Source of the DNA: Pontiellaceae bacterium B12227
GTDB lineage: Bacteria; Verrucomicrobiota; Kiritimatiellia; Kiritimatiellales; Pontiellaceae
Direction: 5' to 3'
NCBI GenBank assembly: GCA_029432775.1
Contig: JAROAZ010000004.1
Span: 186,001-250,000, forward strand
DNA: 64,000 nt
Shown here: piece after piece, positions 1,265-50,634 of the stretch
Layout: each line of letters opens with the position of its first letter
How positions within the stretch are numbered: position 1 is the first letter of the stretch
Position numbers and translations under genes: made by a program
The notes under the pieces: generated by a model
What the model was told of the DNA's origin: nothing
What the model saw: only the letters and a program-made list of their open reading frames with translations
The model's database searches: none

Positions 1265-1280
1265 ATTCAAATTATTGAAA
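1265..1280. promoter_or_regulatory. Diverged copy of the lyase-locus palindrome
   Basis: ATTCAAATTATTGAAA resembles the exact 15-mer found upstream of the lyase genes (TTTCAAATCGTTGAA) but has a different centre. It lies just past the symporter stop codon and about 235 nt upstream of the LacI-type gene, where it could serve autoregulation. With only one diverged copy this is weak. Confidence 0.3.
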
Positions 1281-1295
1281 TCAAGGATACACGGT

Positions 1296-2696: not shown

Positions 2697-2775
2697 AGTT
2701 CCAACCAATAAGTTTATCTCAGTTTATCACTCGGCAACCACGAACGACTTTCAACATAATAATCTTCGTTCGACG

Positions 2776-9300: not shown

Positions 9301-9936
9301 CACTGATGTGTGGCGGAACATGAGGCGGTCTATTCTGAAGTACCTTGAACGCCCGGAAACCACCAGCGTGTAGGTTTCGCCCGCCTTGAAATCATAGACA
9401 GCCACCCGCTTGTTTGACGACCCTCCAGCATCAAGGTTTCCATTGCCGCCGGAAGACAGCTCCCCGTCTTCCCATCTCCAGGATTCAACCGCCCCTCCAA
9501 AATATTTGGTGTTGCTCTGCAAAAGCGTCAGAGATGCGTTGTCGCCATGGCTATCCCATGGCGCCGGGCCGGCAGTATAATCCCCCTCGACCCGGACATA
9601 ACAATCGTTTGCCACATCCGTGCGTCCATCATGCATTTCCTTGGCACAGCGCATGTGCAGGTAATAGAGGCCGGCCTGATTGACCTTGAAGGTAAATTCA
9701 AGCGGCGAGGTTGCGGGACCGTTTTCAAAAGTGTTGCCATCAAACTTTAAATACCCGCTTCCTGTATAACCGGACAGCGCGGTTTTTTGCTCCCAGAGGC
9801 CCAGCGGAGACTCCGTGTTCTCCATCTCCATGATCACCAGGCCGCCGGATTCGTTGTAGACCGCGGCGTTGATGCGGGCAACGCTGCCAAACAACAAAAC
9901 CATTAAAACTGCTGCACGCACAAAGTTCTTCATCAT
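6352..9936 (-). CDS. Secreted multidomain protein with nucleoside-hydrolase-like domain
   Basis: A secreted protein of 1194 residues. The start is supported by AAGGAG 6-7 nt upstream, and a signal peptide ends near VARINAA. Residues about 27-210 and 220-385 look like two beta-sandwich carbohydrate-binding modules. Residues about 393-640 begin VADGNSPDPDDIGAN, resembling the Asp-rich calcium and substrate loop of nucleoside hydrolases (D399, D404, D406, D407). They continue with VHVVSHHPAND and a Trp-rich end, like the DUF1593-type secreted branch. Then follow an autotransporter-type beta-strand region, a GWDxW module and the shared C-terminal tail (FYRLVEQ). The catalytic role is unproven. 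It leads a unit with lyase A, so it may remove a side group or hydrolyse products of the same polysaccharide. Confidence 0.6.
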   Translation of the reverse strand: MMKNFVRAAVLMVLLFGSVARINAAVYNESGGLVIMEMENTESPLGLWEQKTALSGYTGSGYLKFDGNTFENGPATSPLEFTFKVNQAGLYYLHMRCAKEMHDGRTDVANDCYVRVEGDYTAGPAPWDSHGDNASLTLLQSNTKYFGGAVESWRWEDGELSSGGNGNLDAGGSSNKRVAVYDFKAGETYTLVVSGRSRYFRIDRLMFRHTSVSKTAAQNLSNPESGTVATSAEYTYDATTDFPNITAGDVDYYVDNGNDALGIAAQFESNRVGFARAERTFDGTTGSYDVTITTLTEEDGESVYRLLVNGSVAGTYTNAYVYDPPDSPLDLEPDTHMWVGIPINNGDTIAIESNADSNGVVPEDTVGPPWAWARGRWRQLELTSSLVKPPAGRLAYVADGNSPDPDDIGANAVVFGLLHGAELQDRLVHFSHSCDLVKASNISAADELRRQSYMHQTAGEGIGFFGPFDNLSDYYNCRSNQTEAVANLAAAINASTAADPLWIIEAGEPDIIGYALQAANASAIPHVHVVSHHPANDDSGDFFTWQQILDFGVTEHQIGDQNVGLQVLISSGLWDWAEGHSDSAMVWILDQLKYAEADGVVGFQTGKYDCSDAGMIYWWLTGANNGGDKNSTPVEIKDMLLYDGAEPPVETTITMVALGSAVNLTDGATWSDGLPAHSGADYIVPATGNLKSEDGTSTFPGDSLTVLANGKFQVRAKENLGQSTTVNGLVLSNGTSFAAGQFAQLAAGTGNDLTNVLSGTIVNSGYTKFLTYHAYSGGTIARSLKILSTIDGSGRIQAWEGSAGYGGENVIIDNAANTFSGTWEVGADSTLVFNNAGAVGAADIHVLDSGKLRILGDWSTYANLTVADTAATSVELGSNAWNITTLDFGGTAAGDGTYTAAQLNALGSNPVFTGSGTIIVGAAPPPPASAIIAGWDVWNSGSAPTASVLAPNVAASAATTSEGSNWHTSDERGASADGSWGTHVGPPAADTTVAVGQNLELPNATTGGTITFTINNNGMEDIELGAFHFDANAFRTKAARAYELSVLAGSDITVGTIYTSADDEISVGGADNLAHDDIDHSLTGLADHTLAAGESVQFLLAFSSGVGDGSGGHDLWVDNVAVSQVITVPPVDPPVLDVSMSGGNMVFNWSEGGFKVQSRTNLTEGIWVDVPGGHVPPVTNSTTDPEAFYRLVEQ
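7291..7307. repeat. Dispersed palindrome TTCCA-N5-TGGAA
   Basis: GTTCCAGGCATTGGAAC inside the beta-strand repeat region of the nucleoside-hydrolase-like gene. Both six-base arms match perfectly around a five-base spacer. Confidence 0.7.
7871..7887. repeat. Dispersed palindrome TTCCA-N5-TGGAA
   Basis: TTTCCAGTGGCTGGAAC, coding, at the ATGNLKS segment. Lyase B has an exact copy at its paralogous position (12294-12310). Lyase A shows TTTCCCGTATCCGGGAC there, which differs but keeps a palindromic core. Confidence 0.7.
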
Positions 9937-10171: not shown

Positions 10172-13100
10172 TCATTTTTCAATAAGACGGAAGAAGGCCT
10201 CGAGATCGGTCGGGCTGATAATCACCGGCGCAACATCGCCGTCGGGCACATCCTGCCAAATGCCTTCCGTCAGGTTGGTGCGCGACTGCACCTTGAAGCC
10301 GCTTCCGATCCAATCGAAGACCATATCGCCACCGCTCATGCTGTGCTCAAGCAGCGGGAATTCTGTGACGGGCTGGAATACGCCGGTAATACCCACGTTG
10401 TCCACCCACAGGTCATGGCCGCCGGAGCCGTCACCGGCCCCGCCCGAGAAGGTCAGCCGGAACTGAACGGATTCGCCCGCTCCAAGGATATTATCCGAAA
10501 GTCCCGCCAGGGAATGGTCGATATCGTCATGCGCAAAGTTATCCCATTCGCCATCCACAGTGGTGATTTCCTGGGCACCTGAAATGTAGATCACGCCTTC
10601 TGTGATTCCGCCGTCAGCCAGTACGCTCAATTCGTATGTCCGGGCGGCCTTGGAACGGAATGCATAGGCATCGAAGTGGAAAGCGTCCAGTTCGATGGCC
10701 GCCGTACCGGCATTGGTGATGGAGAACGTGAGCGTTCCGCCGGTGGCAGCGTTGGGCAGTTCCAGGTTTTCATTGTCCGTATTCGTTACCGTGCTCGCCG
10801 ACGGGATACTCACAAAAGTTCCCCATGTACCGTCGGCGCTTGCGCCCCGCTCGTCGGCAACATGCCATGCAGAACCTTCCGAGGTCGCCACGGCCGATCC
10901 GGTGATGTCTGCCGCAAGCACGGACGCCAAGGGAGCACTGCCGCTATTCCACGTATCCCACCCGGCGATCAGCTCAATAACCGGCGGTGCTATGTATTCC
11001 GAGAACGCTCCGGTGATGCCCACGTTGTCCACCCATAGATCGTGTCCCCCCGAACCGTCGCCCTCGCCGCCCGAGAACGCCAGCAAGAATTGTACGGCCT
11101 CACCTGGAGCAAGCGTGTGGTCTGCCATATCCGTCAGGGAAATATCGATATCGTCATGGGCCAGATTGTCGTCGCCGCCGACGGTGATCGCATCTGCAGC
11201 GGACGTGTAAACCGTACCGGCCGAAATATCGCTGCCGGCCACGACGCTCAGCTCGTATGTTCTGGCCGCCTTAGTACGGAATGCGTTCGCATCGAAATGG
11301 AATGCACCCAGTTCGATGTCTTCCGTGCCATTGTTGCTAACCGTGAACGTGATGGTTCCGCCCGTGGTCGCATTGGGCAGTTCCAGGTTTTGATTATTAT
11401 TAGTCCCTGCCGTTGTATCTGCGATCGGCGGCCCCTCGTGCGTTCCCCACGAACCGTCAATGCTGGCGCCGCGCTCGTCAGCCGTATGCCAGGCACTGCC
11501 TTCTGAAGTGGTCACAGCCGATGCGGTCACATTCGGATCCAGTACGGATGCGGAGGGCGTCGCCCCACTGTCCCAGACATCCCACCCGGCGATGATCTCA
11601 TAGACCGGCGGAGGAAGCGGTTCCCCGATACGAATGGTGCCGGTTCCGGCAAAAACGGCATTGGCACCGAGGGCATTGAGCTCGGCGGCGGTATAGGTTC
11701 CCTCGGCGATGGCCGATGCGCCGAACACCAGATTCGAGACCGTCCAGTCATAGAAGCCCAAGTCTACTTCTGCAGTAGCCGAATCGGCTACCGTCAGGGT
11801 TCCGTAACTTATCCAGTCATTGGAAATCAAGAGTTTGCCTTGATCCAGCACGGTGATGTCGGCAGATCCGACTGCACTGCCTGTCGGGAAGACCAGCGTG
11901 CCGATATTGCTTTCCCACACCCCGGCAAAGGTGTTGTTGGCATTCACGATGGTGCAGGTGTGCGGATAGGCAGAGGTTCCGGTGCTGTGCAGCGTGCCGT
12001 CACCACTGATGACCGACGAAATACGGATGTTGCGCGGACCATCGCCATTGCCGTAGCCGGAGAGTTTGGTAAACCCGTCATTCTCCAGTGTGCCGTCAAG
12101 ATGGTTGACGGTGTTGTTGCCGGTGCCGGCAGCCAGGTTTACGGACTTTCCGGAGGTTCCGCCGGTGGCACTCAGATTATACACCGTGGTGGCTTCACCT
12201 AATTCGTACTTAGCACGGAACTGGAACTTGCCGCCGCCCTCAACCGTCAGGGTATCACCGTCGAACGTGGAGTTTCCATCCGGGCTCTTGAGGTTTCCAG
12301 TGTCTGGAACAAAATAATCAAACCCGGCGGCCGGAACCTGGTCGTTATCCCAAACCGTGGGCGTGCTCCAGGTTTGCGGAGAGCCCAGAACATCCATCGT
12401 GACGATGGTTGGATCCACCACCGTAATCGTTCCGCTGCCGGCAAAAACAGGATTACTGCCCAGCGCATTGAGCGCCGCCGGAGAATAGGTTCCATAATCA
12501 ACGGAAACGCCGCCGAACAGCAGGTCCGTAACCCTCCAGTGATTAGCCCCCAGATTCACTGCCGCTGTCGGTGCGTCGGCAACAGCAAGCATTCCTTTCG
12601 CATCCCAATCCCCCTGGATCGTGAGCGTACCATGATCCAGAACCTGGATGTCTGCACTTCCTACGGCACCCGCATTAGCAAACTCCAACGTGCCGTTCTG
12701 GCTTATCCATGTGCCTGAAAAATCATTGGCGGCATTCCCGATGGTCAGGGTATGCGTCGAGCTATTGTCAGATGCCATCGAAGTAATAGCAGCTCCGCCA
12801 CTGATCTTCGAGAGCATGTTGAGGTTACGCGGGCCGGTTGCATTCCAATAGCCCTGAAAGACTGAGTTTGAAATCACGGAGATATTGCCATCGAGAGCAA
12901 AGGTGTTGTTGTTTCCGGTTCCTGCATAAATTCCGCCGCCACTCATGATCAGATTGGAAACCATAAACGGGTTAAAGGCATCGCGCAAATGAAGCAGTCC
13001 CCCGTCAAGAATCCTCAAGGATTCTCCACCAAAAGGAGTCGCAGCGTTATTGACATGCAGATTCAGGTCGGTCGTATAGAAATTAGTGGAAACAGGAATA

Positions 13101-14497
13101 CCGTCCGGATCCCAGGTAGAGGCAGTATCCCAGTCGCCGTTATCTACATCCTGCACAACGGGGGCCGGAACCGGCAGTTGGAACACATAGCAATAGATGT
13201 CCTTTTTATCGGCCTGCTTATTTTCGGAAACAATTAGAACCAGCTTCCCGTCATCAATATAGCTTCCGCTTACCCCGAAACTGCGACTCGTACTATGCAC
13301 AAGCTCCGTGGTGTAGTTTACCGAACCGGGTTCACCACTGGTGATCGTGATATTACTGCCGGATGCATTGATGGTGTAAAAACGGTTGTTCCATGCCAGA
13401 CCGGTTTTCCGGACGCCCTGATGCTTGGTAAAGTCGGTCTCACCCGCCTTGCGGGTATAGGTGTATTCATAGGTATTATCGGTTCCCCGTCCATCATAGG
13501 TGATGTGCACATCGCCGTCCTCGCTCACCACCAGCCCGGGGCCGCCCGAGGAGCCCTTGTCATAGGCAGAGGCAGGGAGATCAATGAGAAACGGTTCGAA
13601 GTCATCAACAGGCAGATCGTGCAGGTTACCCTCAAGATCCTCCCATTTATCCGTAAATGTCGGTCCGCACTTGGCCAGATAAACGCCTTCGTTCAGAATG
13701 TCTAGATCCTGCTTGGCCGCCCATCGGACCGAGAAGGCGTAATACACATCACCGTTGTTATAATACGGAACGCCGTAGGCATAGTTATTCAGGTTGATAT
13801 CCCCAAGCCGCCCTTTCGAAACCTGTTTGGATCGTGTCCACTCGACGCCATTATACACGTGCACGACTTCATCGCCGCCAACCGCTGAGCCTTTGCGATA
13901 GTTCACAATGACATCACCATCATCATTCTGCGTGATCTTGGGATACGTAATGGTGACATCCTCCCCCTCAGCCAACCACCCACGGGTGGCTTCAAAGTTA
14001 CTCAAGGTAAATTCACTGTCCGGGGCGAAGGCGATGTTCTTTTTGGAAACAATATATTTCAGAGGATCATTGTGGTGGTCGTAGAAGATATGGACGGTTC
14101 CGTCGATCTTGCTCACCCCCACTGAAATGGTTTTATGCGAGTCGCCCCAGTCGGCCCCAATCAAGGTATTTTGATGAGGAAGCTCAACCGTCACCCAATT
14201 CCCGGAACCGATTTTCTTGCGCGAAATCATCAGGTTTCGGTTCGACATGCCCCCTTTATACCAACCGAAGAACATGTACCCGTTCACCACAGAGACACAA
14301 TCGCCCCGGGGGCTGATGTTGGGATTGTAATGGTAGGCTTTGGAGCCGTCGGCATAGTAAAAGTAAAGCCCTTCCGTGGTGACGGTACTTTCCTCAAGAA
14401 ACTGAACCTGAGCCGATGCTGAGCCGATGCCCGATAGACACAACAACACACATAGCCTTTTGACCATGTTTCCAAATGCAACATTACGCTTCTTCAT
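10172..14497 (-). CDS. Secreted BNR-fold polysaccharide lyase with duplicated C-terminal modules (lyase B)
   Basis: A secreted protein of about 1441 residues. The ATG at 14497 follows GAGGG and opens a signal peptide ending GIGSASA; an upstream TTG is less likely. The BNR_4 propeller (about 30-440) has the PL24/PL25-type quartet H121 (DSHKTISVG), H141 (YDHH), Y185 (TYPKI) and R201 (YRKGS). The residue after the first His is Lys where lyases A and C have Asn. Two autotransporter-type beta-strand regions follow (about 450-950), then two GWDxW modules in tandem (about 970-1375) and the shared tail ending FFRLIEK. The duplication of both module types relative to its paralogues points to recombination between repeats. 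Substrate inferred as an ulvan-like polymer. Confidence 0.78.
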   Translation of the reverse strand: MKKRNVAFGNMVKRLCVLLCLSGIGSASAQVQFLEESTVTTEGLYFYYADGSKAYHYNPNISPRGDCVSVVNGYMFFGWYKGGMSNRNLMISRKKIGSGNWVTVELPHQNTLIGADWGDSHKTISVGVSKIDGTVHIFYDHHNDPLKYIVSKKNIAFAPDSEFTLSNFEATRGWLAEGEDVTITYPKITQNDDGDVIVNYRKGSAVGGDEVVHVYNGVEWTRSKQVSKGRLGDINLNNYAYGVPYYNNGDVYYAFSVRWAAKQDLDILNEGVYLAKCGPTFTDKWEDLEGNLHDLPVDDFEPFLIDLPASAYDKGSSGGPGLVVSEDGDVHITYDGRGTDNTYEYTYTRKAGETDFTKHQGVRKTGLAWNNRFYTINASGSNITITSGEPGSVNYTTELVHSTSRSFGVSGSYIDDGKLVLIVSENKQADKKDIYCYVFQLPVPAPVVQDVDNGDWDTASTWDPDGIPVSTNFYTTDLNLHVNNAATPFGGESLRILDGGLLHLRDAFNPFMVSNLIMSGGGIYAGTGNNNTFALDGNISVISNSVFQGYWNATGPRNLNMLSKISGGAAITSMASDNSSTHTLTIGNAANDFSGTWISQNGTLEFANAGAVGSADIQVLDHGTLTIQGDWDAKGMLAVADAPTAAVNLGANHWRVTDLLFGGVSVDYGTYSPAALNALGSNPVFAGSGTITVVDPTIVTMDVLGSPQTWSTPTVWDNDQVPAAGFDYFVPDTGNLKSPDGNSTFDGDTLTVEGGGKFQFRAKYELGEATTVYNLSATGGTSGKSVNLAAGTGNNTVNHLDGTLENDGFTKLSGYGNGDGPRNIRISSVISGDGTLHSTGTSAYPHTCTIVNANNTFAGVWESNIGTLVFPTGSAVGSADITVLDQGKLLISNDWISYGTLTVADSATAEVDLGFYDWTVSNLVFGASAIAEGTYTAAELNALGANAVFAGTGTIRIGEPLPPPVYEIIAGWDVWDSGATPSASVLDPNVTASAVTTSEGSAWHTADERGASIDGSWGTHEGPPIADTTAGTNNNQNLELPNATTGGTITFTVSNNGTEDIELGAFHFDANAFRTKAARTYELSVVAGSDISAGTVYTSAADAITVGGDDNLAHDDIDISLTDMADHTLAPGEAVQFLLAFSGGEGDGSGGHDLWVDNVGITGAFSEYIAPPVIELIAGWDTWNSGSAPLASVLAADITGSAVATSEGSAWHVADERGASADGTWGTFVSIPSASTVTNTDNENLELPNAATGGTLTFSITNAGTAAIELDAFHFDAYAFRSKAARTYELSVLADGGITEGVIYISGAQEITTVDGEWDNFAHDDIDHSLAGLSDNILGAGESVQFRLTFSGGAGDGSGGHDLWVDNVGITGVFQPVTEFPLLEHSMSGGDMVFDWIGSGFKVQSRTNLTEGIWQDVPDGDVAPVIISPTDLEAFFRLIEK
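12294..12310. repeat. Dispersed palindrome TTCCA-N5-TGGAA
   Basis: TTTCCAGTGTCTGGAAC inside lyase B, at the position equivalent to the copy at 7871-7887. Perfect five-base core arms. Confidence 0.7.
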
Positions 14498-21920: not shown

Positions 21921-22709
21921 TTACGCATCGCGCTGCCAGTCAGGTTTACCACCATAAACCCAACGATAGTAATCTGCCAACTTCAGATCCGCCGCCGCAC
22001 CTTCATCAATAAAGATCTTGGCCACGGGATGGTGCTGCAGAATCGATGCCGGCATGACGGAAGCAACCGGCCCCTCGACCATGCGCTCAACCGCCGCCGC
22101 TTTGCCCTCCCCGAATGCCAGCAATAGGTTCATCCGTGCCTCCATGATGGTGCCGATGCCCATAGTAATGCAATGACGCGGCACCATGGATTCATTGCCC
22201 TCAAAAAAGCGCGCGTTGTCAGCCACCGTTTGCTGTGTCAGCGTCTTAATCCTGGTTCGGGATGCAAAGGAAGAGGTCGGCTCATTAAATCCGACGTGAC
22301 CGTCGGAACCGATGCCAAGCACCTGCAAATCGATTCCCCCTGCATTCTCAATGGCACGCTCGTATGCGGTGCAGGAAGCCGGCACATCAGCGGCCATACC
22401 ATCGGGAATATGCACATTCTCCGGCTGAATATTGATGTGGCGGAACAGGTTATCCCACATAAAGGTGGAGTAGGACTGCTCATGATCGCGCGGCAAACCA
22501 ATGTATTCATCCAGATTGAAGGTGGTGACTTTACTGAAATCCAGTCCTTCTTCCTTATGCAGGCGGATCAGCTCTTTGTAGAGCATCAGCGGCGTACTGC
22601 CGGTTGCCAAGCCCAGAACGGCATTCGGTTTTTCCCGCACCAACCGGGCAACCACCCGTGCCGCCCCTTCGCTGGCAACCTGAGCATTTTCTTTGATAAT
22701 TATTTCCAT
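21921..22709 (-). CDS. nagB: Glucosamine-6-phosphate deaminase
   Basis: Converts glucosamine-6-phosphate to fructose-6-phosphate and ammonia, feeding amino sugars into glycolysis. At 262 residues it is the normal length. Clear family motifs are LGLATGSTP (phosphate loop), FNLDEYIGLPRDHEQSY (catalytic Asp and Glu region) and LGIGSDGHVGFNEP. AAGGAG precedes the start. The start overlaps the stop of the PIG-L deacetylase gene, so the deacetylation and deamination steps are translationally linked. Confidence 0.95.
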   Translation of the reverse strand: MEIIIKENAQVASEGAARVVARLVREKPNAVLGLATGSTPLMLYKELIRLHKEEGLDFSKVTTFNLDEYIGLPRDHEQSYSTFMWDNLFRHINIQPENVHIPDGMAADVPASCTAYERAIENAGGIDLQVLGIGSDGHVGFNEPTSSFASRTRIKTLTQQTVADNARFFEGNESMVPRHCITMGIGTIMEARMNLLLAFGEGKAAAVERMVEGPVASVMPASILQHHPVAKIFIDEGAAADLKLADYYRWVYGGKPDWQRDA

Positions 22710-23506
22710 TAGAATATCTCCTTCAGATTCGCGGCGCCGAGCGGAATATTCAGGCCGCCGTCAATACATTTAACAAATTCACCGCCGCTCCAGTTCCGCA
22801 GGCGGTAAAGCGTTGCGAACGAAAAGTCCGGCGCTGCGCCCCCCTGCCCGCCAACCAGTTCGCCACCACGACGAACGTTGTCCTGCATCCAGGCCGGGAG
22901 CAGCAGGTGATAGGGATTCCGCACCACTTCCTCCACGTGCAATGAGGTTGCCGCAATCAGCTCGGCCAGCATCTCTGCATCGGCCTCAACCATCAGATTC
23001 GGATCATCCATCGCCCCCCAGTATTCGGATTCCACCACGATACAGGAAAATGCTTCCGGCATCTTTTCCAGCGCTTCCGCAATCAGGAAATGCGTTGCGA
23101 TATGCCGCGAGTTCCAATCCATGGAATGGGGCATTACGATAATCTCCGGCTGGATTTTTGTCAGCACATTCACTACGTCGGCAACATCGAGAGCACGAAA
23201 GTCGGCATGCTCGCGGTGAATACCCCATCCAAGATACGCACACGCATCGGCCAGCTCGTTGGCCCGCCCTTGCCGACGGTTCTCATCGCTGCCGAAGGTA
23301 ACCGGCACATTGATGATCTGCTTTCCTAGCTCTTTCATCAGGCGCAGTGGAAGCAGACCGATGATACACTCATCGTCCGGGTGCGGTGAAAACAGCAGCA
23401 CTTTGGATTCGGATTCCACGACGTCCCGGCAACCGGACACCGCAAGCCCTTTGGCTGACTGCACGCCAGCCTGAATGGATTCAACATAGGTGAGATATGG
23501 ATTCAT
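22709..23506 (-). CDS. PIG-L/LmbE-family deacetylase
   Basis: A zinc-dependent amidase of 265 residues in the family that removes N-acetyl groups from GlcNAc derivatives. The zinc motif appears as FSPHPDDECIIG near residue 40, with the later metal His in the MPHSMDWNSRHIATH segment. Its start abuts the upstream kinase stop and its stop overlaps nagB. No NagA is present, so this enzyme probably supplies the GlcNAc or GlcNAc-6-phosphate deacetylation step (inference). The residue after the histidine (SRHIATH) is the family's usual third-ligand region. An exact dispersed palindrome lies inside at 23112-23126. Confidence 0.85.
   Translation of the reverse strand: MNPYLTYVESIQAGVQSAKGLAVSGCRDVVESESKVLLFSPHPDDECIIGLLPLRLMKELGKQIINVPVTFGSDENRRQGRANELADACAYLGWGIHREHADFRALDVADVVNVLTKIQPEIIVMPHSMDWNSRHIATHFLIAEALEKMPEAFSCIVVESEYWGAMDDPNLMVEADAEMLAELIAATSLHVEEVVRNPYHLLLPAWMQDNVRRGGELVGGQGGAAPDFSFATLYRLRNWSGGEFVKCIDGGLNIPLGAANLKEIF
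23112..23126. repeat. Dispersed palindrome TTCCA-N5-TGGAA
   Basis: TTCCAATCCATGGAA in the deacetylase gene, encoding part of MDWNS. Perfect arms. Confidence 0.7.
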
Positions 23507-25030: not shown

Positions 25031-25873
25031 ATGAAAGAAGCCCTGTTGCAAATTGAAGAACCTGCAGATTATTTTGTAGGCATTGGAAAAAGCCGCCTGC
25101 CGACGCCCACCGACATCCTGCTGTTTATTCGGCGCTCCAAGGATATGCTGCAGCAGGAAGCCCTGCAGAATCGGTCGCACCACCGGTTTGTGCTCGCCCT
25201 GAACCTTGAAACTGCTGGTCATGTGCACATCAACAACCTGGCGCTCCCTTTCAACCCCGGACAGGTTCTACTGATTCTACCCTACCAGTTCCACCACTTC
25301 AGCCAGCTCGCATCAACGCAACTCAAATGGTTGTTCTGCACCTTCGAACTCGAACCGCGCACCTTTCTGGAGCCCCTGCGAAACCGGGTGATTGATCCCA
25401 CCGACAAGAGCCGCAAAATCTATGAAGAACTACTGAGCATATGGCATCAACCTCAGAGCGAACTGCAGTCGGAACAACTGCAGACCGTTCTGCTTCGCCT
25501 GCTGCTTTCGCTGAAGCAGGATCGGCAGCAAACGGCCTCCGACCTGCCGAAGGAACCCGAAGACAATCTACTTCGCGCTGTTAACCGCCTAATGTCTGAA
25601 CGGAGCGGGCGCACCGTAATCGTGGCCGATCTCGCTCAGGCACTCGGCTATTCAGAATCGCGCCTCCGTGTATTGTTCAAAGATCTGGCTGGGATTTCGC
25701 TCGGCAGCTATATGCAGAACTATCGCATCAACCGGGCCATGGCATTATTGCGAACCACCACGCTGACGATCGCCGATGTTGCAGAAGAGGCCGGATTCGG
25801 ATCGCCTCAGGCCTTCAGCCGCATTTTCAAAAAAGAAACCGGCAGCACGCCCCGCGCATATCGCAAATTATAA
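25031..25873 (+). CDS. AraC-family transcriptional regulator
   Basis: 280 residues. The C-terminal ~100 residues carry the double helix-turn-helix (IVADLAQALGYSESRLRVLFK, then IADVAEEAGFGSPQAFSRIFK and the closing GSTPRAYRK). The N-terminal part is a cupin-like effector domain (LPFNPGQVLLILPYQFHHF). It diverges from the ROK/PIG-L/NagB/kinase/epimerase operon, so it is the likely activator of that operon, responding to an amino sugar or its phosphate (inference). Its 3' end overlaps the convergent murC stop by six bases. Confidence 0.92.
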   Translation: MKEALLQIEEPADYFVGIGKSRLPTPTDILLFIRRSKDMLQQEALQNRSHHRFVLALNLETAGHVHINNLALPFNPGQVLLILPYQFHHFSQLASTQLKWLFCTFELEPRTFLEPLRNRVIDPTDKSRKIYEELLSIWHQPQSELQSEQLQTVLLRLLLSLKQDRQQTASDLPKEPEDNLLRAVNRLMSERSGRTVIVADLAQALGYSESRLRVLFKDLAGISLGSYMQNYRINRAMALLRTTTLTIADVAEEAGFGSPQAFSRIFKKETGSTPRAYRKL

Positions 25874-27181
25874 ACGGGCAGCTGATCCGGACGATTCAGA
25901 AAACTCACGCTGGGCCCATTCGGCCACCTGCTCGATATCCCCTGCGCCGATAATCAGCAACAGATCACCTTCACACAACTGGGCTGCAAGATCCTGCCAG
26001 GCGGTTTCCAATGACTGGAAAGAGTGCAAGCGGTCTTTCCAATCATTGGAAAATCGTTTTGCAAGGTCCATAGAGGTGCCACCCTCGAGCGGTTTTTCCG
26101 AAGCGGCATAAACCGGAACGAGCCAGAGTTTTTCCAATCCCTGGAAACTCGGCGGAAAATCAGGCCCCAGCGCCAGCGTTCGAGTGTAACGGTGGGGCTG
26201 GAAGATGCCCAGCAACCGTTTCGGCTTCAGCTCCTGCGCAGTTTGAATCAGGGCAGCAATTTCTGTTGGATGGTGTGCGTAGTCGGAAACAATACGAACG
26301 CCCCCCGCGTCAACCACCGTTTCGAACCGGCGGCCGATGGGTTCGATGTTTTCCAATGCCTGGAAAATCTCGGCATCGGTTTTCCAATGTTTGGAAACAG
26401 CCCATGCGGCGGCGGCGTTCCACTGATTGTGTTTTCCAGGGATTGGAAGTTTGATTCGGGACTCGGGAAAGCTGAACGGTTTACATTTCGGGTTTGCTGA
26501 ACAAAGGCGCTGCGCAATGGGATCATCGGCACAGTAAAACACCGTATCTTTGGTCTGAGCAATCAGCTTTTCGAAGCAGCCGATGAAGGCGGTCTCTGAA
26601 TCGTGATGCTCCATATGGTCGTATTCGATGTTGGTGATAATTGAGTAGTCGGGGGTATAGCCGGCGACCGTACCATCCGATTCATCGGCTTCGACCACCA
26701 TAATTCCGCCGTCGCGCGCCACGGCACCCTGCAGACCGGAAATTTCTCCTCCAACAAAAAAACCGCAACCGAGCACCTGGGCGATCATGGCCGTTGTGGT
26801 GGTTTTTCCATGCGTACCGCTGACGGCAATACAGGTTCGGCTGCGCATGAGCGCCGGAAGCACTTCCCCGCGGCGCGAAACCGGAATACCCTCAGCCAGC
26901 GCCTGATGGACTTCCGGGTGGGTGTCGGGCACTGCGGTTGAACGGACCAGCCAATCGATATCCGGCACGATATGATCGGATGCATGCCCATGTGCAATCG
27001 GAATTCCATGACTTTCAAGCCATTCGGTTTGCCGGTTTTGCTGAAGGTCACATCCGGAAACTACAAAACCCCGTTCCTTCAGAAGCCACGCGATTCCTGC
27101 CATACCAATCCCGCCAATGCCCATCAGATGAACATGTCCGCCCTTACTGATCAGCTGTTCAGCGTGATCGACCGGCGACAT
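25868..27181 (-). CDS. murC: UDP-N-acetylmuramate--L-alanine ligase
   Basis: A cytoplasmic ATP-dependent ligase that adds L-Ala to UDP-MurNAc in peptidoglycan synthesis. It has 437 residues, slightly short of the usual 450-490. Family motifs are the N-terminal HLMGIGGIGMAGIA, the P-loop AVSGTHGKTTTTAMI, VVEADESDGT, and the C-terminal ligase-domain SDYAHHPTEI and FQPHRYTRT. It starts one base after the murG stop. Six exact and no frame-consistent copies of the dispersed TTCCA-N5-TGGAA palindrome fall in its last third. They encode FQSLE, FSNDWK, FQGLE, FQALE, SKHWK and PIPGK, so all three codon phases are used and the constraint is on DNA or RNA rather than on peptide. Confidence 0.96.
   Translation of the reverse strand: MSPVDHAEQLISKGGHVHLMGIGGIGMAGIAWLLKERGFVVSGCDLQQNRQTEWLESHGIPIAHGHASDHIVPDIDWLVRSTAVPDTHPEVHQALAEGIPVSRRGEVLPALMRSRTCIAVSGTHGKTTTTAMIAQVLGCGFFVGGEISGLQGAVARDGGIMVVEADESDGTVAGYTPDYSIITNIEYDHMEHHDSETAFIGCFEKLIAQTKDTVFYCADDPIAQRLCSANPKCKPFSFPESRIKLPIPGKHNQWNAAAAWAVSKHWKTDAEIFQALENIEPIGRRFETVVDAGGVRIVSDYAHHPTEIAALIQTAQELKPKRLLGIFQPHRYTRTLALGPDFPPSFQGLEKLWLVPVYAASEKPLEGGTSMDLAKRFSNDWKDRLHSFQSLETAWQDLAAQLCEGDLLLIIGAGDIEQVAEWAQREFSESSGSAARL
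26005..26449. repeat. Cluster of six dispersed palindromes inside murC
   Basis: Copies at 26005-26021, 26036-26052, 26131-26147, 26350-26366, 26381-26397 and 26433-26449. Each has exact TTCCA/TGGAA arms, and the first five have full TTTCCA/TGGAAA arms. Spacers are ATGAC, ATCAT, ATCCC, ATGCC, ATGTT and GGGAT, giving a directional consensus AT-S-M-Y on one strand. Two pairs are spaced 31 nt start to start. Confidence 0.85.
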
Positions 27182-28398: not shown

Positions 28399-28812
28399 AT
28401 GGAAGAACTGGACCCGATCAAACTGAAAGCTGAGCTTGATCAGTTTAAAAAAGAGAAAGAAAAAATCCGGAAACTGATGGGCCAAATCGGCGGAAAAGAT
28501 GCTGAAAAGCAGGACCGTTGGGCAAACCGTTTTTTTATTACGGCCATCAGCCTGCTGGCGCTGAATGATTTTCTGCACCATATATTCGGCTTCCACACAC
28601 CGATTCCCTCGCTCTTTTCGCTGGAGATCGCCGTGCTGCTGGTCTCGGTGAAGATTATCTGGATGATGCATAAATCCACGAAAGTGGAGCACTTCCAGTT
28701 CTGGATTCTGAATTCAATCGAATATCGACTGAACGACGTCGCCAAACAGTTGCGGCATTTAGAAAAAACGGTCGATAAATACCATACCGAAGAGGATGAA
28801 GATTCCGATTAA
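28399..28812 (+). CDS. Small coiled-coil membrane protein, unrecognised
   Basis: 137 residues. The ATG at 28399 has GGAG six bases upstream; an ATG at 28387 is also possible. Residues about 1-40 are a charged, Lys/Glu-rich coiled coil. Two hydrophobic segments follow (FFITAISLLALNDFLHHIFG and IAVLLVSVKIIWMM), then a charged helix ending in acidic residues. It overlaps the convergent epmA end by four bases. No family recognised; a possible inner-membrane structural or sensing role cannot be stated from sequence. Confidence 0.6.
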   Translation: MEELDPIKLKAELDQFKKEKEKIRKLMGQIGGKDAEKQDRWANRFFITAISLLALNDFLHHIFGFHTPIPSLFSLEIAVLLVSVKIIWMMHKSTKVEHFQFWILNSIEYRLNDVAKQLRHLEKTVDKYHTEEDEDSD

Positions 28813-29654
28813 CGGAACGGCAGAACAGCATCCAGCGAGGTCGCTTCTGCGATCAGCATCAGCAGCCGGTCTACTCCAAGCGCTATGCCGCCGGAGGGCG
28901 GCATTTTTTCCAATGCCTGGAGAAAGGCTTCATCAATTTCATATGCCTCTTTCCCCAGAGCGATTCGTTGCTGAGCGCACGCTTCGAACCGAAGGCGCTG
29001 TTCCACGGGATCGGTCAATTCTGAGTAGGCATTGGCAATTTCAACCCCGTCCATGTAAAGCTCCCACCGTTCCGCGCGCAGAGGATCCCCGGGCCTGCAA
29101 CGGGAGAGTGCGGCCGCTTCGACCGGATAGTCTTTAAGCACCACCGGACCGCCGATTTTTTTTATGGCCGGCTCGACCTTTTCGACCAGATCGATATCAA
29201 ACCGATCCTCATCATAGTTCCCCGCCGGATCCCAACCGGCAAACTCGAGGAATGCATCCGAAACGGTCAGGATTTTCCACTGTTTGGAAACATCTTTCCA
29301 AACAGTGGAAATGAGCAGTCGGGTTTCTTCCAGAATGTCCATGTAATCCGCGTCGGCCTGATACCACTCGAGCATGGTATATTCCGGATTATGCAGCGGG
29401 CCTAGTTCACCGCTGCGAAAACATTTCCCCATCTCGAAAATCCGCTGGCACCCCGCCGCCAGCAGCTGTTTATGAAAGATTTCCGGCGAGGTGCGCAGGA
29501 AATGATCCCCGCTCGGCTCCGCATCGATATGTAATTCCATGCAGGGGATTTTCAGCCGGATCGGGGTTTCGACTTCGGTGTAGTCCCGATCATAAAAAAA
29601 CGCCCGGATGCGTCGCATCAGGGCGTCTCTCAGCATGATGCTGTCAGTCGGCAT
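28809..29654 (-). CDS. epmA: Elongation factor P lysine ligase EpmA (GenX/PoxA)
   Basis: A class II lysyl-tRNA-synthetase paralogue without an anticodon domain that attaches beta-lysine to EF-P. 281 residues from the ATG at 29654, which follows AAAGG and lies one base after the efp stop; an earlier ATG would overlap efp. Motif 1 lies around YTEVETPIRL, motif 2 is FEMGKCFRSGELGPLHNPEYTMLEW, and motif 3 is GIALGVDRLLM. The adjacent EF-P has the matching loop lysine, supporting this modification route. EpmB, the aminomutase that makes beta-lysine, is not seen in the window. Confidence 0.92.
   Translation of the reverse strand: MPTDSIMLRDALMRRIRAFFYDRDYTEVETPIRLKIPCMELHIDAEPSGDHFLRTSPEIFHKQLLAAGCQRIFEMGKCFRSGELGPLHNPEYTMLEWYQADADYMDILEETRLLISTVWKDVSKQWKILTVSDAFLEFAGWDPAGNYDEDRFDIDLVEKVEPAIKKIGGPVVLKDYPVEAAALSRCRPGDPLRAERWELYMDGVEIANAYSELTDPVEQRLRFEACAQQRIALGKEAYEIDEAFLQALEKMPPSGGIALGVDRLLMLIAEATSLDAVLPFR
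28907..28923. repeat. Near-copy of dispersed palindrome in epmA
   Basis: TTTCCAATGCCTGGAGA, one base off the TTTCCA/TGGAAA consensus, in the 3' part of epmA. Confidence 0.4.
29274..29311. repeat. Perfect inverted pair of dispersed palindromes inside epmA
   Basis: TTTCCACTGTTTGGAAA (29274-29290) and TTTCCAAACAGTGGAAA (29295-29311) are exact reverse complements separated by four bases. Each arm is itself a TTTCCA/TGGAAA palindrome, so the element can fold as one 17-bp hairpin or as two small ones. Confidence 0.8.
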
Positions 29655-29655
29655 C

Positions 29656-30222
29656 TTAACCTTTGGAAACGCGGTCTGCATAGGACCCATCGCGCGTATC
29701 AATGCGAATTGTGTCCCCTTCGTTAATGAAGATCGGAACGTTGATTTCGTAGCCGTTTTCCAGCTTCGCCGGTTTCATGACATTTGTTGCTGTATCACCA
29801 CGGGCTCCCGGTTCTGTTTCCGCAATCACCATTTCAACAAAATTCGGCATGGTGATATCGAGTGCGCGGTCGTTGTGGAACAGAATCTCTACCTGCATGT
29901 CATCGACAATGAAATATTTCTGATCGCCCAGCAGTTCTTCATTCAGTATCGCCTCTTCATAAGTCTCGTTATCGGAGAACACGTAGTTGTCACCATCAAT
30001 ATAGGAAAACGTGTAGTCGCGGGAAATGAGTGCGCAACGGTTCACTTTCTCCACCGAACGGTAGGTTTTATCGAACTGATTGCCGGTGATAAGGTTTTTG
30101 ATCTTACAGCGGTAAAGGGCCTGGCCTTTACCGGGTTTTGAAAACTCGAAGTTGGTAATCATGCAAGGATCGCCGTCGATCTCGATCTTCAAGCCTTTCT
30201 TCAGGTCGGATGCACTGTACAT
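29656..30222 (-). CDS. efp: Translation elongation factor P
   Basis: Relieves ribosome stalling at polyproline. 188 residues, the standard three-domain OB-like length. The N-terminal loop reads FEFSKPGKGQALYRCKIKN, with the modifiable Lys at position 32 (K34 in E. coli numbering). AAGGGAA precedes the ATG. It is immediately upstream of epmA, one base between stop and start, so the factor and its modifying enzyme are made together. Confidence 0.96.
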   Translation of the reverse strand: MYSASDLKKGLKIEIDGDPCMITNFEFSKPGKGQALYRCKIKNLITGNQFDKTYRSVEKVNRCALISRDYTFSYIDGDNYVFSDNETYEEAILNEELLGDQKYFIVDDMQVEILFHNDRALDITMPNFVEMVIAETEPGARGDTATNVMKPAKLENGYEINVPIFINEGDTIRIDTRDGSYADRVSKG

Positions 30223-32236: not shown

Positions 32237-32253
32237 TTTCCAAGCTTTGGAAG
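32237..32253. repeat. Dispersed palindrome TTCCA-N5-TGGAA, intergenic
   Basis: TTTCCAAGCTTTGGAAG with exact five-base arms. It lies just after the EEP gene stop and before the DUF4230-like gene on the minus strand. Confidence 0.7.
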
Positions 32254-34641: not shown

Positions 34642-35964
34642 ATGGCAGAAGTTGAACTCCAGGATGCGCCGCAAGGCGTACGGACCTATTATGACAAAGG
34701 GGTTGCTGCGCTGGAACGCAGTAACTTCGAATATGCAATGGATATGTTCGCAGCAGCGCTCAAGATCGAGCCCCGCCTGTTATCAGTCCGCAAATTATTA
34801 CGCTTGGCGGCCATTAAAAACACCGGCTTAAAGCCTCCGGGAAAGTTGACGGCAGCCAAAAGTCTCGGAGCTTTCATGAAAGCTTCGGCCATGCTGAAAA
34901 AGGATCCGCAACAGGCTATTGAACGGGCGGAAGATCTTTTACGCATCGATCCGCTGAATTTCAAGTTTGCCAAACTGCAATGCGATGCCGCTGAAGCCGC
35001 CGGTCATCCCGAGATTGCCATCCTGACCCTGGAAATGCTTAAAGAAAATACTCCTCCAAACCTGGCGATCCTGAACCCTTTGGCCCGGCTTTACCGCACT
35101 GCAGAACGCTTTGACGATGAATATGCCTGCCATGAAGCAATGGTTAAACTGAAGCCAAACGATACCAACGCCCTCAAAGAATTGAAAGACTCCGCCGCCC
35201 GGCTGACCATGGGCAAAGCCGGATGGCAAAAAGCTGAAAGCTTCCGCGATGTGATTCGCACAGAAACCGAAGCCGCTTCAGCTTCCAATGAGCTTGAGCA
35301 GCTGACAGCCCTGCTGCAGGCAGAACCGGATAACGTAAACCACATCCTGGCTCTGGCTGATTATCAGACAAAACGCCGACTCTTCGGAGATGCTGTCCTG
35401 ACCCTGAAAAACGGATTAAACGTGAGCGGCGGCGATCCGCGCCTGGAGCAGAAACTGTGGAATGCCCAGGAGCAGGAACTGCTGTTTCAACTTGCAGAAG
35501 CGGAAGATTCTCAGGAGGAAAATCAAATTTCCAGGCTTCGGAAGCAGCTGTCTGAAATGCGCATCACGACGGCCGCCCGTAAAGTGGAGCAGTACCCCAA
35601 CGATCTCCAGATGAAGTTCGAATATGGCAAACTGCTTTTCGATGCGGATCAATTAACAGCGGCTGTTCAACAATTTCAACTGGCACAGCGGAATCCCCAG
35701 CGCCGGGTTCGATCGCTCATCTATCTGGCCAAGGCATTTGAAAAGAAAGGCCAGTTGAATATTGCCCTTGAACAACTGGAAGCTGCTCTGAATGAATTGC
35801 AGTCGATGGACGAAACCCGGAAAGAAGTTTTATATCAGTTGGGGCTTCTACAGGAAAAAATGGGAAACAAGACGCAGGCGGAATCCTGCCTGAAAGAGAT
35901 CTACACCGTAGATATTGGATACAGGGATGTGGCGGAACGAATTGAAAACAGCGCTGATTGCTAG
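34642..35964 (+). CDS. TPR-repeat protein
   Basis: 440 residues composed largely of tetratricopeptide-type helix pairs, for example YYDKGVAALERSNFEYAMDMF, AIERAEDLLRIDPLNFKF and ALEQLEAALNELQ. No signal peptide or membrane segment. GAGG lies nine bases before the ATG. Its end overlaps the next gene by 38 nt. Such proteins are scaffolds for protein-protein contacts; the partner cannot be read from sequence. Confidence 0.8.
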   Translation: MAEVELQDAPQGVRTYYDKGVAALERSNFEYAMDMFAAALKIEPRLLSVRKLLRLAAIKNTGLKPPGKLTAAKSLGAFMKASAMLKKDPQQAIERAEDLLRIDPLNFKFAKLQCDAAEAAGHPEIAILTLEMLKENTPPNLAILNPLARLYRTAERFDDEYACHEAMVKLKPNDTNALKELKDSAARLTMGKAGWQKAESFRDVIRTETEAASASNELEQLTALLQAEPDNVNHILALADYQTKRRLFGDAVLTLKNGLNVSGGDPRLEQKLWNAQEQELLFQLAEAEDSQEENQISRLRKQLSEMRITTAARKVEQYPNDLQMKFEYGKLLFDADQLTAAVQQFQLAQRNPQRRVRSLIYLAKAFEKKGQLNIALEQLEAALNELQSMDETRKEVLYQLGLLQEKMGNKTQAESCLKEIYTVDIGYRDVAERIENSADC

Positions 35965-36814
35965 CCTTGCAATCACAAACTGCCTGATCACTGATGCCCG
36001 CGAATTTTCGGTCATGACGTATAATCTGCATCAGTTTTACCTGACCGATAGAGATCGCGACGGTAAAAAGGACGATCCCAAACCGGACTCCGAATGCAAA
36101 GCCATTGCCGCCATTATAGCGGAAGCGAATCCAGACATTCTGGCTGTACAGGAAATGGGAGGCGTTCCTTTTCTCAATACATTTCAGGCCTGGCTGAAAA
36201 CAAAGGGATTGGAATATCAGCATGTGGAGTTGCTGCAGCGGGGCGACCGCGACAATAACCTCGCCGTGCTAAGCCGATTTCCAATCATTGGAACCACGTA
36301 CCACACCAACGAATGGTATTCGATTGGAAAAGCAAAGCTGGCCGTTGCCCGCGGTTTTCTTGAAACGGAGATTCAAGTAGACGAAACGTATTCATTCCGA
36401 CTCTTAAACTCCCACCTGAAATCGAAGGTTTACAGCCGCTTGGGACAAACCGAGATGCGGCGCAATGAAGCCCGTCTATTAAACAAAGTGGTACGCCGAA
36501 TTCTTGAAGAGAACGAAGCGTGCAACCTGCTGGTTGTGGGCGATATGAACGACAACCCGAACTCGGCCGCCCTGCGGGAGGTTACGGGAAAGTCGAAAAA
36601 AAACCTCTTTGATCTCCGCCCCGCTGAGGAAACCGGTGATGCCTGGACTTATTACCAACAGTCCACGGAACAACACGCGCGGTTCGACTACCTGTTTGCC
36701 AATGCAAAAATGATGGGCGATGCTATTCCTGAAAAATCAACGGTGATCAGAAGTCCGCTCACCTACAAAGCTTCCGATCACCGCCCGGTGCTGGTCACGT
36801 TCAAAACCGATTAG
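35927..36814 (+). CDS. Secreted EEP-family nuclease/phosphodiesterase-like protein
   Basis: 295 residues from the ATG at 35927, which opens a likely signal peptide (LKTALIASLAITNCLITDA). Motifs: VMTYNLHQF (Asn), DILAVQEMGG (Glu), LLNSHLKSK (His), LVVGDMNDNP (Asp/Asn) and KASDHRPVLVTF (Asp-His), an intact EEP active site. Asp-rich DRDRDGKKDD near residue 40 could bind calcium. The gene overlaps the TPR gene end by 38 nt and the convergent lipoprotein gene by four. The substrate, perhaps extracellular DNA, is inferred. Confidence 0.75.
   Translation: MWRNELKTALIASLAITNCLITDAREFSVMTYNLHQFYLTDRDRDGKKDDPKPDSECKAIAAIIAEANPDILAVQEMGGVPFLNTFQAWLKTKGLEYQHVELLQRGDRDNNLAVLSRFPIIGTTYHTNEWYSIGKAKLAVARGFLETEIQVDETYSFRLLNSHLKSKVYSRLGQTEMRRNEARLLNKVVRRILEENEACNLLVVGDMNDNPNSAALREVTGKSKKNLFDLRPAEETGDAWTYYQQSTEQHARFDYLFANAKMMGDAIPEKSTVIRSPLTYKASDHRPVLVTFKTD
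36278..36293. repeat. Dispersed palindrome TTCCA-N5-TGGAA
   Basis: TTTCCAATCATTGGAA inside the secreted EEP gene; same spacer as the murC copy at 26036. Confidence 0.7.
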
Positions 36815-39770: not shown

Positions 39771-39862
39771 TATCCAGAGTTTGGAAACAATACCCCTCGG
39801 CCCCGTGTGCCGCAAACCCGATTTCATATTTTCCAACCATTGGAAGTTCCAATGACTGGAAA
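39771..39862. repeat. Cluster of dispersed palindromes upstream of the DUF4870 gene
   Basis: TATCCAGAGTTTGGAAA (39771-39787, near-copy), TTTCCAACCATTGGAAG (39830-39846) and GTTCCAATGACTGGAAA (39846-39862). The last two have exact TTCCA/TGGAA arms and sit head to tail, sharing one base. They lie in the spacer between the Cys-rich gene's terminator and the DUF4870 start. Confidence 0.8.
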
Positions 39863-41702: not shown

Positions 41703-41894
41703 CTATGCTTTATACTCTGAACCCTCTTCCTGGATCCGTAAGGCTTCGGATGCCGGAATTTTATAAGGCTCGCCATTCCTCTCAATAATCACATCCTGTC
41801 CAAGCTTGGCTTTTTTGACCAACTCATCATAAACAGCCGCCTTCAGGCACTTTCTCGCCTCTTCTGTTTTTCTTAAAATACTTTTTTCACTCAT
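41703..41894 (-). CDS. Probable antitoxin of the zeta-type pair
   Basis: 63 residues, charged (MSEKSILRKTEEARKCL start, then VIIERNGEPYKIPASEAL). The VIxRNGEPYxI pattern resembles PHD/antitoxin-like small proteins. Its ATG overlaps the end of the zeta-like gene by eight bases, the usual layout of a toxin-antitoxin pair, here toxin first. Function is inferred from position and size. Confidence 0.6.
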   Translation of the reverse strand: MSEKSILRKTEEARKCLKAAVYDELVKKAKLGQDVIIERNGEPYKIPASEALRIQEEGSEYKA

Positions 41895-42471
41895 AGCCAC
41901 TCTCCAGAATCAATTGATAACGATCTTCATCAATAACAGTTCTTTCGCCCATATTTTCTGCAAAAACCGAAACAGGTTCTGTCTGCGCATTGTTGTAACA
42001 CATCACCTCGTCGCACAGCGGAATAAACACATTCAGCAGATTTGAAACCGTCCGAACATAGCGGCGAGCAATCGCCTCTACGGGAATATCATGTCCCCCG
42101 GCTTCAACACGTTGCTGCACCCGAGCCGCAGAGAAGCGCGCATTCGGAACCCATAGATAAAACAGAATAATCTTCCAATCCTTGGAACGCAGCTCTTTCA
42201 GCAGCTTTACATACGAACGCCCTGACAGAGTCGTTTCAAACGCAAAATCCTCGCCCTTTTCCACATTCGAACGGATTTCGCGCAATAGGATCTTACCGGC
42301 CTCCAGTTGAACTTTTGAAGGATCGAGCGGAGACAAGCCATCCGCAATCAGGTCGGCGTTAATAAAATTCCGGCACCCCGTCATCTCCGGTAAGTACCGT
42401 AAGGCAAACGTCGTCTTGCCCGCACCATTAGGCCCGGCTATCACATAACAGATTGGCTGTTCGTTTTTCAT
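41887..42471 (-). CDS. Zeta-toxin-like P-loop kinase
   Basis: 194 residues with a Walker A motif at the N-terminus (VIAGPNGAGKTTFALRYL), NADLIADGLSP, and FAFETTLSGRSY, all typical of zeta-toxin or related UDP-sugar kinases. Catalytic-looking Arg residues are in ARVQQRVEAGGHD. It overlaps the small antitoxin-like gene. The known family blocks wall synthesis by phosphorylating UDP-GlcNAc; whether this one does is inferred. An exact dispersed palindrome lies at 42173-42187. Confidence 0.8.
   Translation of the reverse strand: MKNEQPICYVIAGPNGAGKTTFALRYLPEMTGCRNFINADLIADGLSPLDPSKVQLEAGKILLREIRSNVEKGEDFAFETTLSGRSYVKLLKELRSKDWKIILFYLWVPNARFSAARVQQRVEAGGHDIPVEAIARRYVRTVSNLLNVFIPLCDEVMCYNNAQTEPVSVFAENMGERTVIDEDRYQLILESGYE
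42173..42187. repeat. Dispersed palindrome TTCCA-N5-TGGAA
   Basis: TTCCAATCCTTGGAA inside the zeta-like gene, encoding part of SKDWK. Confidence 0.7.
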
Positions 42472-44133: not shown

Positions 44134-45213
44134 CTAACTGCGGGCTGTTCCGTTTTTATAAAACGGGAGTTCTACAATTTCAGCGGGGAAGCGCTTGCCC
44201 CGAATCTCGACTTCCAGCGTGTTCCCAACCTTGGAAACATCCGATTTCACATAGGCCATGGCCACCGCCACTCCAAGGCTTGGAGCAAGCGACCCACTGG
44301 TCACCTCCCCGACTTCCTGATCTCCGGAAAAAACCTTGTCATGTTCCCGGGCGGCGCGTTTTGAACTGAACTTCAGTCCAACCAGCAGGTTTTGCGGAAT
44401 TTCGAGGTCGTGCATTACCGGATCTTTTCCGATGAAATCCTTATTCCGGTCAATAAACATGCCGCGGGTCATTTCCGCTGGTGTTCGTGAGGCCGAGAGC
44501 TCGTGTCCATAAAGCGCATAGCCCATTTCGAGGCGCAGGGTATCGCGGGCGCCGAGCCCGCCGGGTTGGCAGTACGGGTGAGCAACCAGCTTTTTCCATA
44601 ATTCAACCGCAGCCTCATTCGGCAGATAGATTTCGTAGCCCAGCTCGCCGGTGTAGCCTGTTCGGCTGATAATGGTTGAGGCTTCCAGGGCCTGGAACTC
44701 TCTGAAACGGAAATATCCAAGCTCCGGAAGCGTGCAGCCGAAGACCTCCTCAAGCACATCCAGCGCTTCCGGTCCCTGAATATCCAGCTTTGCAGTTTCG
44801 GCCGATAAATCCACAAAGATTGTCGTATCGGAGATGCGGCTCTGAATCCATTCTGCATCTTTTTGGGCTGTACCGGCATTAACCACCAGCATATAGCGCT
44901 CTTCACAAAGGCGGTAGCAGGTCAGATCGTCAATGACCCCGCCCTCTTCGTTCAGCATAAAGCCATAACGAACCTGCCCAATTTTCAGCGAGCGAATGTT
45001 GCAGGTGAGTAAATTTTCCAGATCCTGAAGGGCGGTTTTCCCATACAGTTCGAATTCACCCATATGGCATATATCAAAAATAGAACAGTGATTACGAGTG
45101 TGTTCGTGCTCATCCAGAATGCCCGCATACTGAATGGGCATGTCCCATCCACCAAATTCTCCCATCCGGGCGCCGAGTTTCAAATGCTGTTCGTGCAGCG
45201 GCGTCATTTTCAT
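44134..45213 (-). CDS. gcvT: Glycine cleavage T-protein (aminomethyltransferase)
   Basis: Transfers the methylene of the H-protein aminomethyl arm to THF, releasing ammonia. 359 residues, typical. Motifs: GARMGEFGGWDMPIQY near the N-terminus, NHCSIFDICHMGEF, RTGYTGELGYEI, and GLGARDTLRLEMGYALYGHEL. It leads the gcvT-gcvPA-gcvPB unit; no gcvH gene occurs between 40 and 46 kb. An exact dispersed palindrome is at 44683-44697. Confidence 0.96.
   Translation of the reverse strand: MKMTPLHEQHLKLGARMGEFGGWDMPIQYAGILDEHEHTRNHCSIFDICHMGEFELYGKTALQDLENLLTCNIRSLKIGQVRYGFMLNEEGGVIDDLTCYRLCEERYMLVVNAGTAQKDAEWIQSRISDTTIFVDLSAETAKLDIQGPEALDVLEEVFGCTLPELGYFRFREFQALEASTIISRTGYTGELGYEIYLPNEAAVELWKKLVAHPYCQPGGLGARDTLRLEMGYALYGHELSASRTPAEMTRGMFIDRNKDFIGKDPVMHDLEIPQNLLVGLKFSSKRAAREHDKVFSGDQEVGEVTSGSLAPSLGVAVAMAYVKSDVSKVGNTLEVEIRGKRFPAEIVELPFYKNGTARS
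44683..44697. repeat. Dispersed palindrome TTCCA-N5-TGGAA
   Basis: TTCCAGGGCCTGGAA in gcvT, encoding FQALE. Near-copies lie at 43549 (gcvPA) and at 44222 and 44270 (gcvT). Confidence 0.7.
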
Positions 45214-50617: not shown

Positions 50618-50634
50618 TTTCCATTCTTTGGAAA
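50618..50634. repeat. Dispersed palindrome TTCCA-N5-TGGAA, intergenic
   Basis: TTTCCATTCTTTGGAAA, full six-base arms, just upstream of the fucosidase ribosome site. Confidence 0.7.

Follow-up and report, generated by a model that had tools for sequence, protein, structure and literature searches.

Iterated genomic words such as HIP1 have long been puzzling, because sequence alone rarely tells what reads them. Short palindromes are read by dimers that organise the chromosome in the case of Noc sites and of matS, the site of MatP, whose centre is R-N-Y; these sites number in the tens and lie in limited regions. DNA uptake sequences (DUS) are not known to be palindromic. HIP1 (GCGATCGC) of cyanobacteria is described as a short, contiguous and GC-rich palindrome that occurs very often, within genes as well as between them, is made by substitution, has replacement forms in some lineages and is linked to methyltransferases of its core (PMC4390886). 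The DUS of Neisseriaceae are described as numbering about 1000 to 6000 in a genome, with dialects among clades and loss in some relatives (PMC3630211). From Bacillus and others, tandem repeats of constant size (20-21 and 52 nt) are described, which have a whole-turn step and in which short constant words alternate with variable DNA; a nucleoid-stabilising protein that polymerises along the DNA was proposed for them (PMC8161180). The genome-wide A-tract periodicity of 10-11 bp is presented as a helical-period signal tied to nucleoid proteins (PMC3940949). A literature search with the literal forms of the motif studied here found no paper, and Pontiella or Kiritimatiell- combined with palindrom- returned no title or abstract on such a motif, the lone co-mention sitting in a reference list. 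The word search of the available text of PMC7356697 and PMC10880615 gave irrelevant passages only.

The palindrome TTCCA-N5-TGGAA was present in 21 exact copies in the window, the whole 64-kb stretch of DNA that was analysed, compared to a mean of 0.08 over 100 shuffles (largest 2). Each of the 21 positions listed in the original prediction was confirmed, while the number of near-copies was corrected from about eight to 15 copies with one arm mismatch. Most copies had been placed within genes, in three codon phases, and 17 of the 21 were indeed genic in all three phases and four intergenic, according to a simple purpose-made gene finder. The gene holding six copies (25868-27181, minus strand) was murC, as had been claimed for the densest cluster; it scored above cut-off for TIGR01082 (372.6 bits, cut-off 335.1) and has orthologues in the genus. 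By motif scan and phase calculation, these six copies were located at 26006-26020 (turn 0), 26037-26051 (2.97 turns of 10.45 bp), 26132-26146 (12.06 turns), 26351-26365 (33.01 turns), 26382-26396 (35.98 turns) and 26434-26448 (40.96 turns), all on one face of the helix (chance 0.0002). Two further copies (7292-7306 and 7872-7886) lay in the gene at 6352-9936 (-), and one (12295-12309), with the same codon phase as the 7872 copy and similar flanks, in the gene at 10172-14497 (-). A 21-bp pair (29275-29289 and 29296-29310) was found in the gene at 28809-29681 (-). The remaining genic copies were 23112-23126 in 22709-23506 (-), 36279-36293 in 35927-36814 (+), identical in the relatives G020 and G019, 42173-42187 in 41887-42471 (-), 44683-44697 in 44134-45213 (-), 52763-52777 in 51754-53337 (-) and 60946-60960 in 59906-61039 (+). 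The intergenic copies were 32238-32252, 50619-50633 and the two at 39831-39845 and 39847-39861, which are 16 bp apart.

The refined site was the 17-bp TTTCCA-RNSNY-TGGAAA. Among 132 copies in 417 kb of the genome of the window (G000), the first spacer base was A or G in 93%, the last T or C in 93% (strands pooled) and the centre C or G in 96%; the spacer rule is wider (R-N-S-N-Y) than the AT-S-M-Y proposed before. The spacer length was strict: five bases were found in 132 copies, and any other length between 2 and 11 gave 0 to 2. No 5-5-5 inverted repeat besides TTCCA stood out (132 copies, next best 8). A short RNA hairpin, suggested earlier as one role, would keep its stem by compensating changes. 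This option was not supported, as the arms were fixed, no other 5-5-5 repeat rivalled the palindrome and the inner bases were unpaired: those adjoining the arms inside the spacer were A-C or G-T in 43 of 132 copies and G-C in 7. In the same 417 kb, CCAN5TGG without TT...AA was not visibly enriched, which rejects the plain core motif as an explanation and lends no support to the suggested methylase target insofar as it concerned the core alone. The fixed arms, the unpaired inner bases, the strict spacer and the 10-bp distance between half-sites point to the DNA site of a dimer. Like the sites of chromosome-organising dimers, it is palindromic and sequence-specific, with a spacing compatible with the helix. 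The commonest single arm deviation was A to G at the base adjoining the spacer (30 copies versus 2.6 in controls with other spacers, 417 kb of G000), and the relaxed TTCCR form may be bound too.

The 6.29 Mb of G000 contained 2297 copies, versus 6 for the reversed control pattern. This excess of about 380-fold exceeded the genome-wide excess of at least 100-fold that had been proposed as support, and a short palindrome lying so far above expectation genome-wide is typical of HIP-type words. In the order of the window, all 43 genomes matched, with 5 to 2297 copies each, and those with the fewest (5 to 7, versus 0 or 1 for the control) were near background. Among 288 genomes of the class, the motif was abundant in families f1, f2, f8, f14 (up to 3209 copies in G125), f18 and f27, moderate in f9, f22 and f36, and limited to at most 18 copies in f11, f19, f26, f31 and f37, where controls gave 0 to 11. 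Two copies spaced exactly 31 bp apart were found in 43 of 131 sampled class genomes and in 0 of 256 others of the phylum (387 in total, by row count). The class bearing the motif is probably Kiritimatiellia; the best named MurC relatives were MAGs labelled Lentisphaerales and Kiritimatiellia. In f27, the spacers of G087 and G113 followed Y-R-S-Y-R and those of G104 did not. Like DUS/USS, the motif is abundant both inside and outside genes and has clade dialects. G029, a one-contig chromosome from another family than G000, carried 186 copies over 40 sampled stretches all round the chromosome, and the counts fell mildly with distance from the origin placed by GC skew (Spearman -0.33, p 0.037). 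The segregation mark suggested earlier, if taken as limited to one part of the chromosome, is not supported by this distribution. Four of the 40 stretches (20 kb each, at 0.10, 0.19, 1.94 and 2.52 Mb) had no copy, versus about 0.4 expected, and perhaps represent recently acquired DNA.

The placement of the sites differed among families. In f1 and f2, the order of the window, most sampled copies were genic and in all codon phases (224 of 287 in G000, 131 of 186 in G029), with a density between genes about 2.6 times that within genes in these two genomes. In the other families sampled, whose stretches were partly picked around listed sites, 15 of 139 copies (summed over rows) were genic and the remainder were mostly intergenic doublets and arrays. 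The array steps were mostly 31-32 bp and some 21-22 bp, with linkers differing between units, and 28 of the 30 rich genomes chosen had triple arrays, compared to 0 for the reversed control. In G125, 14 of 19 convergent or divergent gaps had a site versus 8 of 28 tandem gaps, as if sites sat at the borders of transcription units; the families besides that of G125 were thinly sampled. The gap preference and the higher density between genes would suit a global transcription regulator with a very large regulon, whose promoter sites spilled over into genes. However, convergent gaps, which hold no promoter for the flanking genes, were hit as often as divergent ones (7 of 9 in G125), and most copies in G000 and G029 were genic. 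Moreover, of a list of 40 genes preceded by two or more sites, in which two genes were entered in duplicate, the 20 scanned had unrelated functions, which speaks against one regulon. A regulator of this kind is thus distinctly unlikely, and the copies all round the chromosome together with the lack of a common theme in the 20 scanned genes favour an architectural over a regulatory role.

The orthologues of murC revealed how copies arise. In the codon alignment of sister genomes, the six sites were with or without the motif and differed by substitutions without gaps, and the encoded residues tracked the motif, being FQGLE in G000, G020, G019 and G001 and FDGLE, FDGLD or FEGLD in G009, G016 and G008. 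The alignment took in 24 of 28 genomes, leaving out G012 and G014 (cut short) and G006 and G010 (distant matches only), with a misaligned G002 row set aside; the differences it shows may be gains or losses of the motif. Compared with four relatives, arm identity was 87-95.5%, flanks 73-76% and spacers 56-64%. Both arms were intact in 7/11, 8/13, 3/9 and 4/10 sites, versus 7-8% of control windows, and outside murC in 2/5, 4/7, 2/3 and 1/4, the same site recurring in several relatives; these counts omit gap-containing sites, which the identity comparison includes. The higher identity of arms than flanks and the excess of intact arms over controls indicated that the arms are conserved as DNA, and copies come and go by point substitution. 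The claims that the constraint is not on peptide and that the motif behaves like HIP1 were both borne out.

These data also bear on a mobile palindromic repeat, whether a REP/BIME element mobilised by RAYT transposases or an insert resembling the palindromic element of Rickettsia. Arrays between genes would be expected from it, and Y1 transposase domains were found in 32 of 33 chosen genomes. However, the murC sites aligned gaplessly apart from the one misaligned row, and a gap was touched in 3 of 46 site comparisons with the four relatives, at two intergenic sites, which rejects insertion elements. The linkers between array units were unlike, and Y1 and motif numbers were unrelated (8 Y1 and 41 copies in G012, 2 and 1091 in G033, none in G057, which has arrays), which rejects RAYT/REP in particular. 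Such an origin is hardly credible.

The distances between copies followed the DNA helix. In G000 (817 kb) and G029 (800 kb), distances of 18-400 bp clustered at whole multiples of a 10.45-bp turn (R 0.59 for 107 pairs; the nominal p is 6e-17, the pairs inside one cluster not being independent); a pooled test that repeats orthologous murC pairs was left out of this result. As control, 27 palindromic 6-mers gave a median R of 0.07 and a best of 0.21. Pairs whose distance is not a multiple of three were equally phased (R 0.57, 70 pairs), which rejects the alpha-helix periodicity of encoded proteins as the cause. The phase was also found between exact and one-mismatch copies (R 0.40, 153 pairs) and between two one-mismatch copies (R 0.40, 64 pairs). 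TTCCA alone (R 0.06) and TGGAA alone (R 0.05) were unphased, which places the phase in the full palindrome only and rejects background A-tract periodicity. With a free period from 4 to 20, adjacent pairs gave P 0.0005 in G029 (24 pairs), and P 0.0005 in both genomes after removal of the 28-36 bp class (49 pairs). The phase was kept at 250-400 bp (R 0.55, 33 pairs) and absent beyond 400 bp (R 0.14 for 54 pairs at 400-700 bp, R 0.08 for 83 pairs at 700-1200 bp). In f8, f14, f22 and f27, the steps were so uniform at 31-33 bp that no period could be resolved. Counted against an architectural role were the P of 0.03 for adjacent pairs in G000 alone (42 pairs, same free period), the weak phase of short pairs (18-60 bp) that are not both genic (19 pairs, R 0.37, p 0.07) and the off-phase 16-bp pair 39831/39847 of the window. 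The original prediction did not extend to the helical phase, to arrays throughout the class or to the origin of copies by substitution.

The phase between dispersed genic copies looks like a record of physical contact between bound proteins, since phase over several hundred bases suggests that bound dimers touch, bridge or loop. CCAN5TGG is a known type of restriction site (PflMI), and this was counted for a HIP-type by-product of methylation or repair, or some other mutational ratchet working without a structural binder. The distribution and the substitution origin resemble those of HIP1 under that explanation too, but the core without TT...AA is not visibly enriched, and a ratchet that works on each site separately would not be expected to set sites in helical phase with one another, so it is very unlikely. 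Taken together, the phase and the other features favour a cooperative dimer along one face and disfavour a hairpin, a mobile element and a plain methylation site.

The main rival is a DNA uptake signal, in which the competence apparatus would recognise the palindrome, DNA bearing it would be taken up and recombined in preference, and the copies would multiply through biased transformation, like those of DUS/USS. The thousands of substitution-made copies in and outside genes, the clade dialects and the uneven loss all suit this explanation. ComEC was found in 263 of 288 class genomes, and DprA likewise in 263 of 288. Within f1, f2, f8 and f27, genomes without ComEC had low motif density (8 of 66, stratified permutation p 0.0003); the link held at completeness of at least 75% (5 of 58, p 0.0003) and of at least 80% (4 of 55, p 0.005). 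The loss of ComEC together with the motif is not predicted by architecture and was counted against it. However, the ComEC losses fell in about four lineages, three with small or incomplete genomes, and thus represent few independent events. DprA gave p 0.03 unfiltered and no link at completeness of at least 75% (p 0.23), and the motif-poor genomes G008, G016, G009, G012, G013, G005 and G149 keep ComEC. We know of no uptake signal with helical phase or 31-bp arrays, and both stand against this explanation. Because the absences come from few lineages and motif-poor genomes retain ComEC, the association hints at an uptake signal but does not prove one; such a signal is possible but unlikely. The ComEC-less genomes in motif-bearing families were G004, G006, G010, G023, G131, G177, G187 and G201, all motif-poor for their family and some small or incomplete; five of the 25 ComEC-less genomes seem to lie outside the families tested.

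Among the roles listed in the original prediction, the site of a nucleoid protein or regulator fitted best and an uptake mark was a less likely alternative; the hairpin, a methylase target on the core alone and a segregation mark bound to one region were not supported. On balance, TTTCCA-RNSNY-TGGAAA is probably the putative site of an abundant, class-wide, dimeric DNA-binding protein that is cooperative along one face, with chromosome architecture as its likeliest role. The candidate dimer would read the site as double-stranded DNA, contacting two neighbouring major grooves on one face through half-sites 10 bp apart, and dimers would interact across distances of up to about 400 bp between their sites. 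Copies would appear and vanish through point substitutions and be conserved as DNA, the amino acids differing accordingly, as seen in murC, and retained sites are placed whole helical turns apart, as expected if the interaction favours such placement. In the order of the window, dispersed sites may be coated or bridged along one face; in other families, the intergenic doublets and arrays may serve chromosome architecture, and in the f27 genomes with the YRSYR spacer, protein and site may have changed together. Sister species that have 20 copies do without the system, which was counted against architecture.

The DNA-binding protein VF530 was tried as the binder because one of its paralogues in G000 has two upstream sites. 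It was found in 52 of 288 class genomes and had no match in G029 or G048, so this sole scanned candidate failed and the scan found no binder protein. The paralogue, a longer one (L117:3739-4137(-), contig C151 of G000, near 44 kb), has its two upstream sites 22 bp apart.

Arrays were also observed in viral sequences. Three of 50 IMG/VR stretches with paired sites had arrays just before head genes (L210:2786-2946, L209:3034-3164 and L239:650-767) with steps of 31, 22 or 41 bp, and the ten proteins scanned beside viral arrays were terminase, portal, protease and major head proteins. Many other viral pairs were off helical steps. In addition, a viral ORF of 130 aa (L228:3188-3580(+)) overlaps three motif copies 31 bp apart; by eye, its start resembles a small helix-turn-helix repressor, and it had no NCBIfam match.

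A broader reading is offered tentatively, somewhat short of probable: the class may write an architectural code into its chromosome, coding DNA included, as thousands of sites for one cooperative dimer, set whole turns apart up to about 400 bp, with residues of an essential enzyme matching. This would amount to a base-specific bacterial analogue of chromatin positioning that has dialects among clades, and host phages would carry the same arrays ahead of packaging genes. If this were confirmed, coding sequence in the class would be shaped by chromosome architecture, studies of its protein evolution and codon statistics would have to allow for a signal at the level of DNA, and the binder would be retrievable with a 17-bp oligonucleotide.

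Compared to the described systems, the palindrome has thousands of sites all round the chromosome, unlike those of MatP and Noc. It shares with HIP1, as that word is described (PMC4390886), the short palindromic form, the very many genic and intergenic copies, the substitution origin and the lineage replacement forms; it differs in being AT-rich at its ends, with a five-base spacer, a core not visibly enriched by itself, helical phase and 31-bp arrays. The copy number, dialects and loss in relatives resemble those of DUS, which are read by the uptake machinery and for which the text available from PMC3630211 does not mention helical phase. The constant-size repeats described in PMC8161180 likewise have a helical array step, of 20-21 or 52 nt there and mostly 31-32 with some 21-22 bp here, and a proposed nucleoid role, but here one fixed palindrome is used across families, with dispersed, phased genic copies. 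The A-tract signal, as presented in PMC3940949, resides in short A/T runs, whereas here only the full palindrome is phased. The combination of a fixed palindrome, coding copies and helical phase is found in none of HIP1, DUS and the constant-size repeats as these sources describe them.
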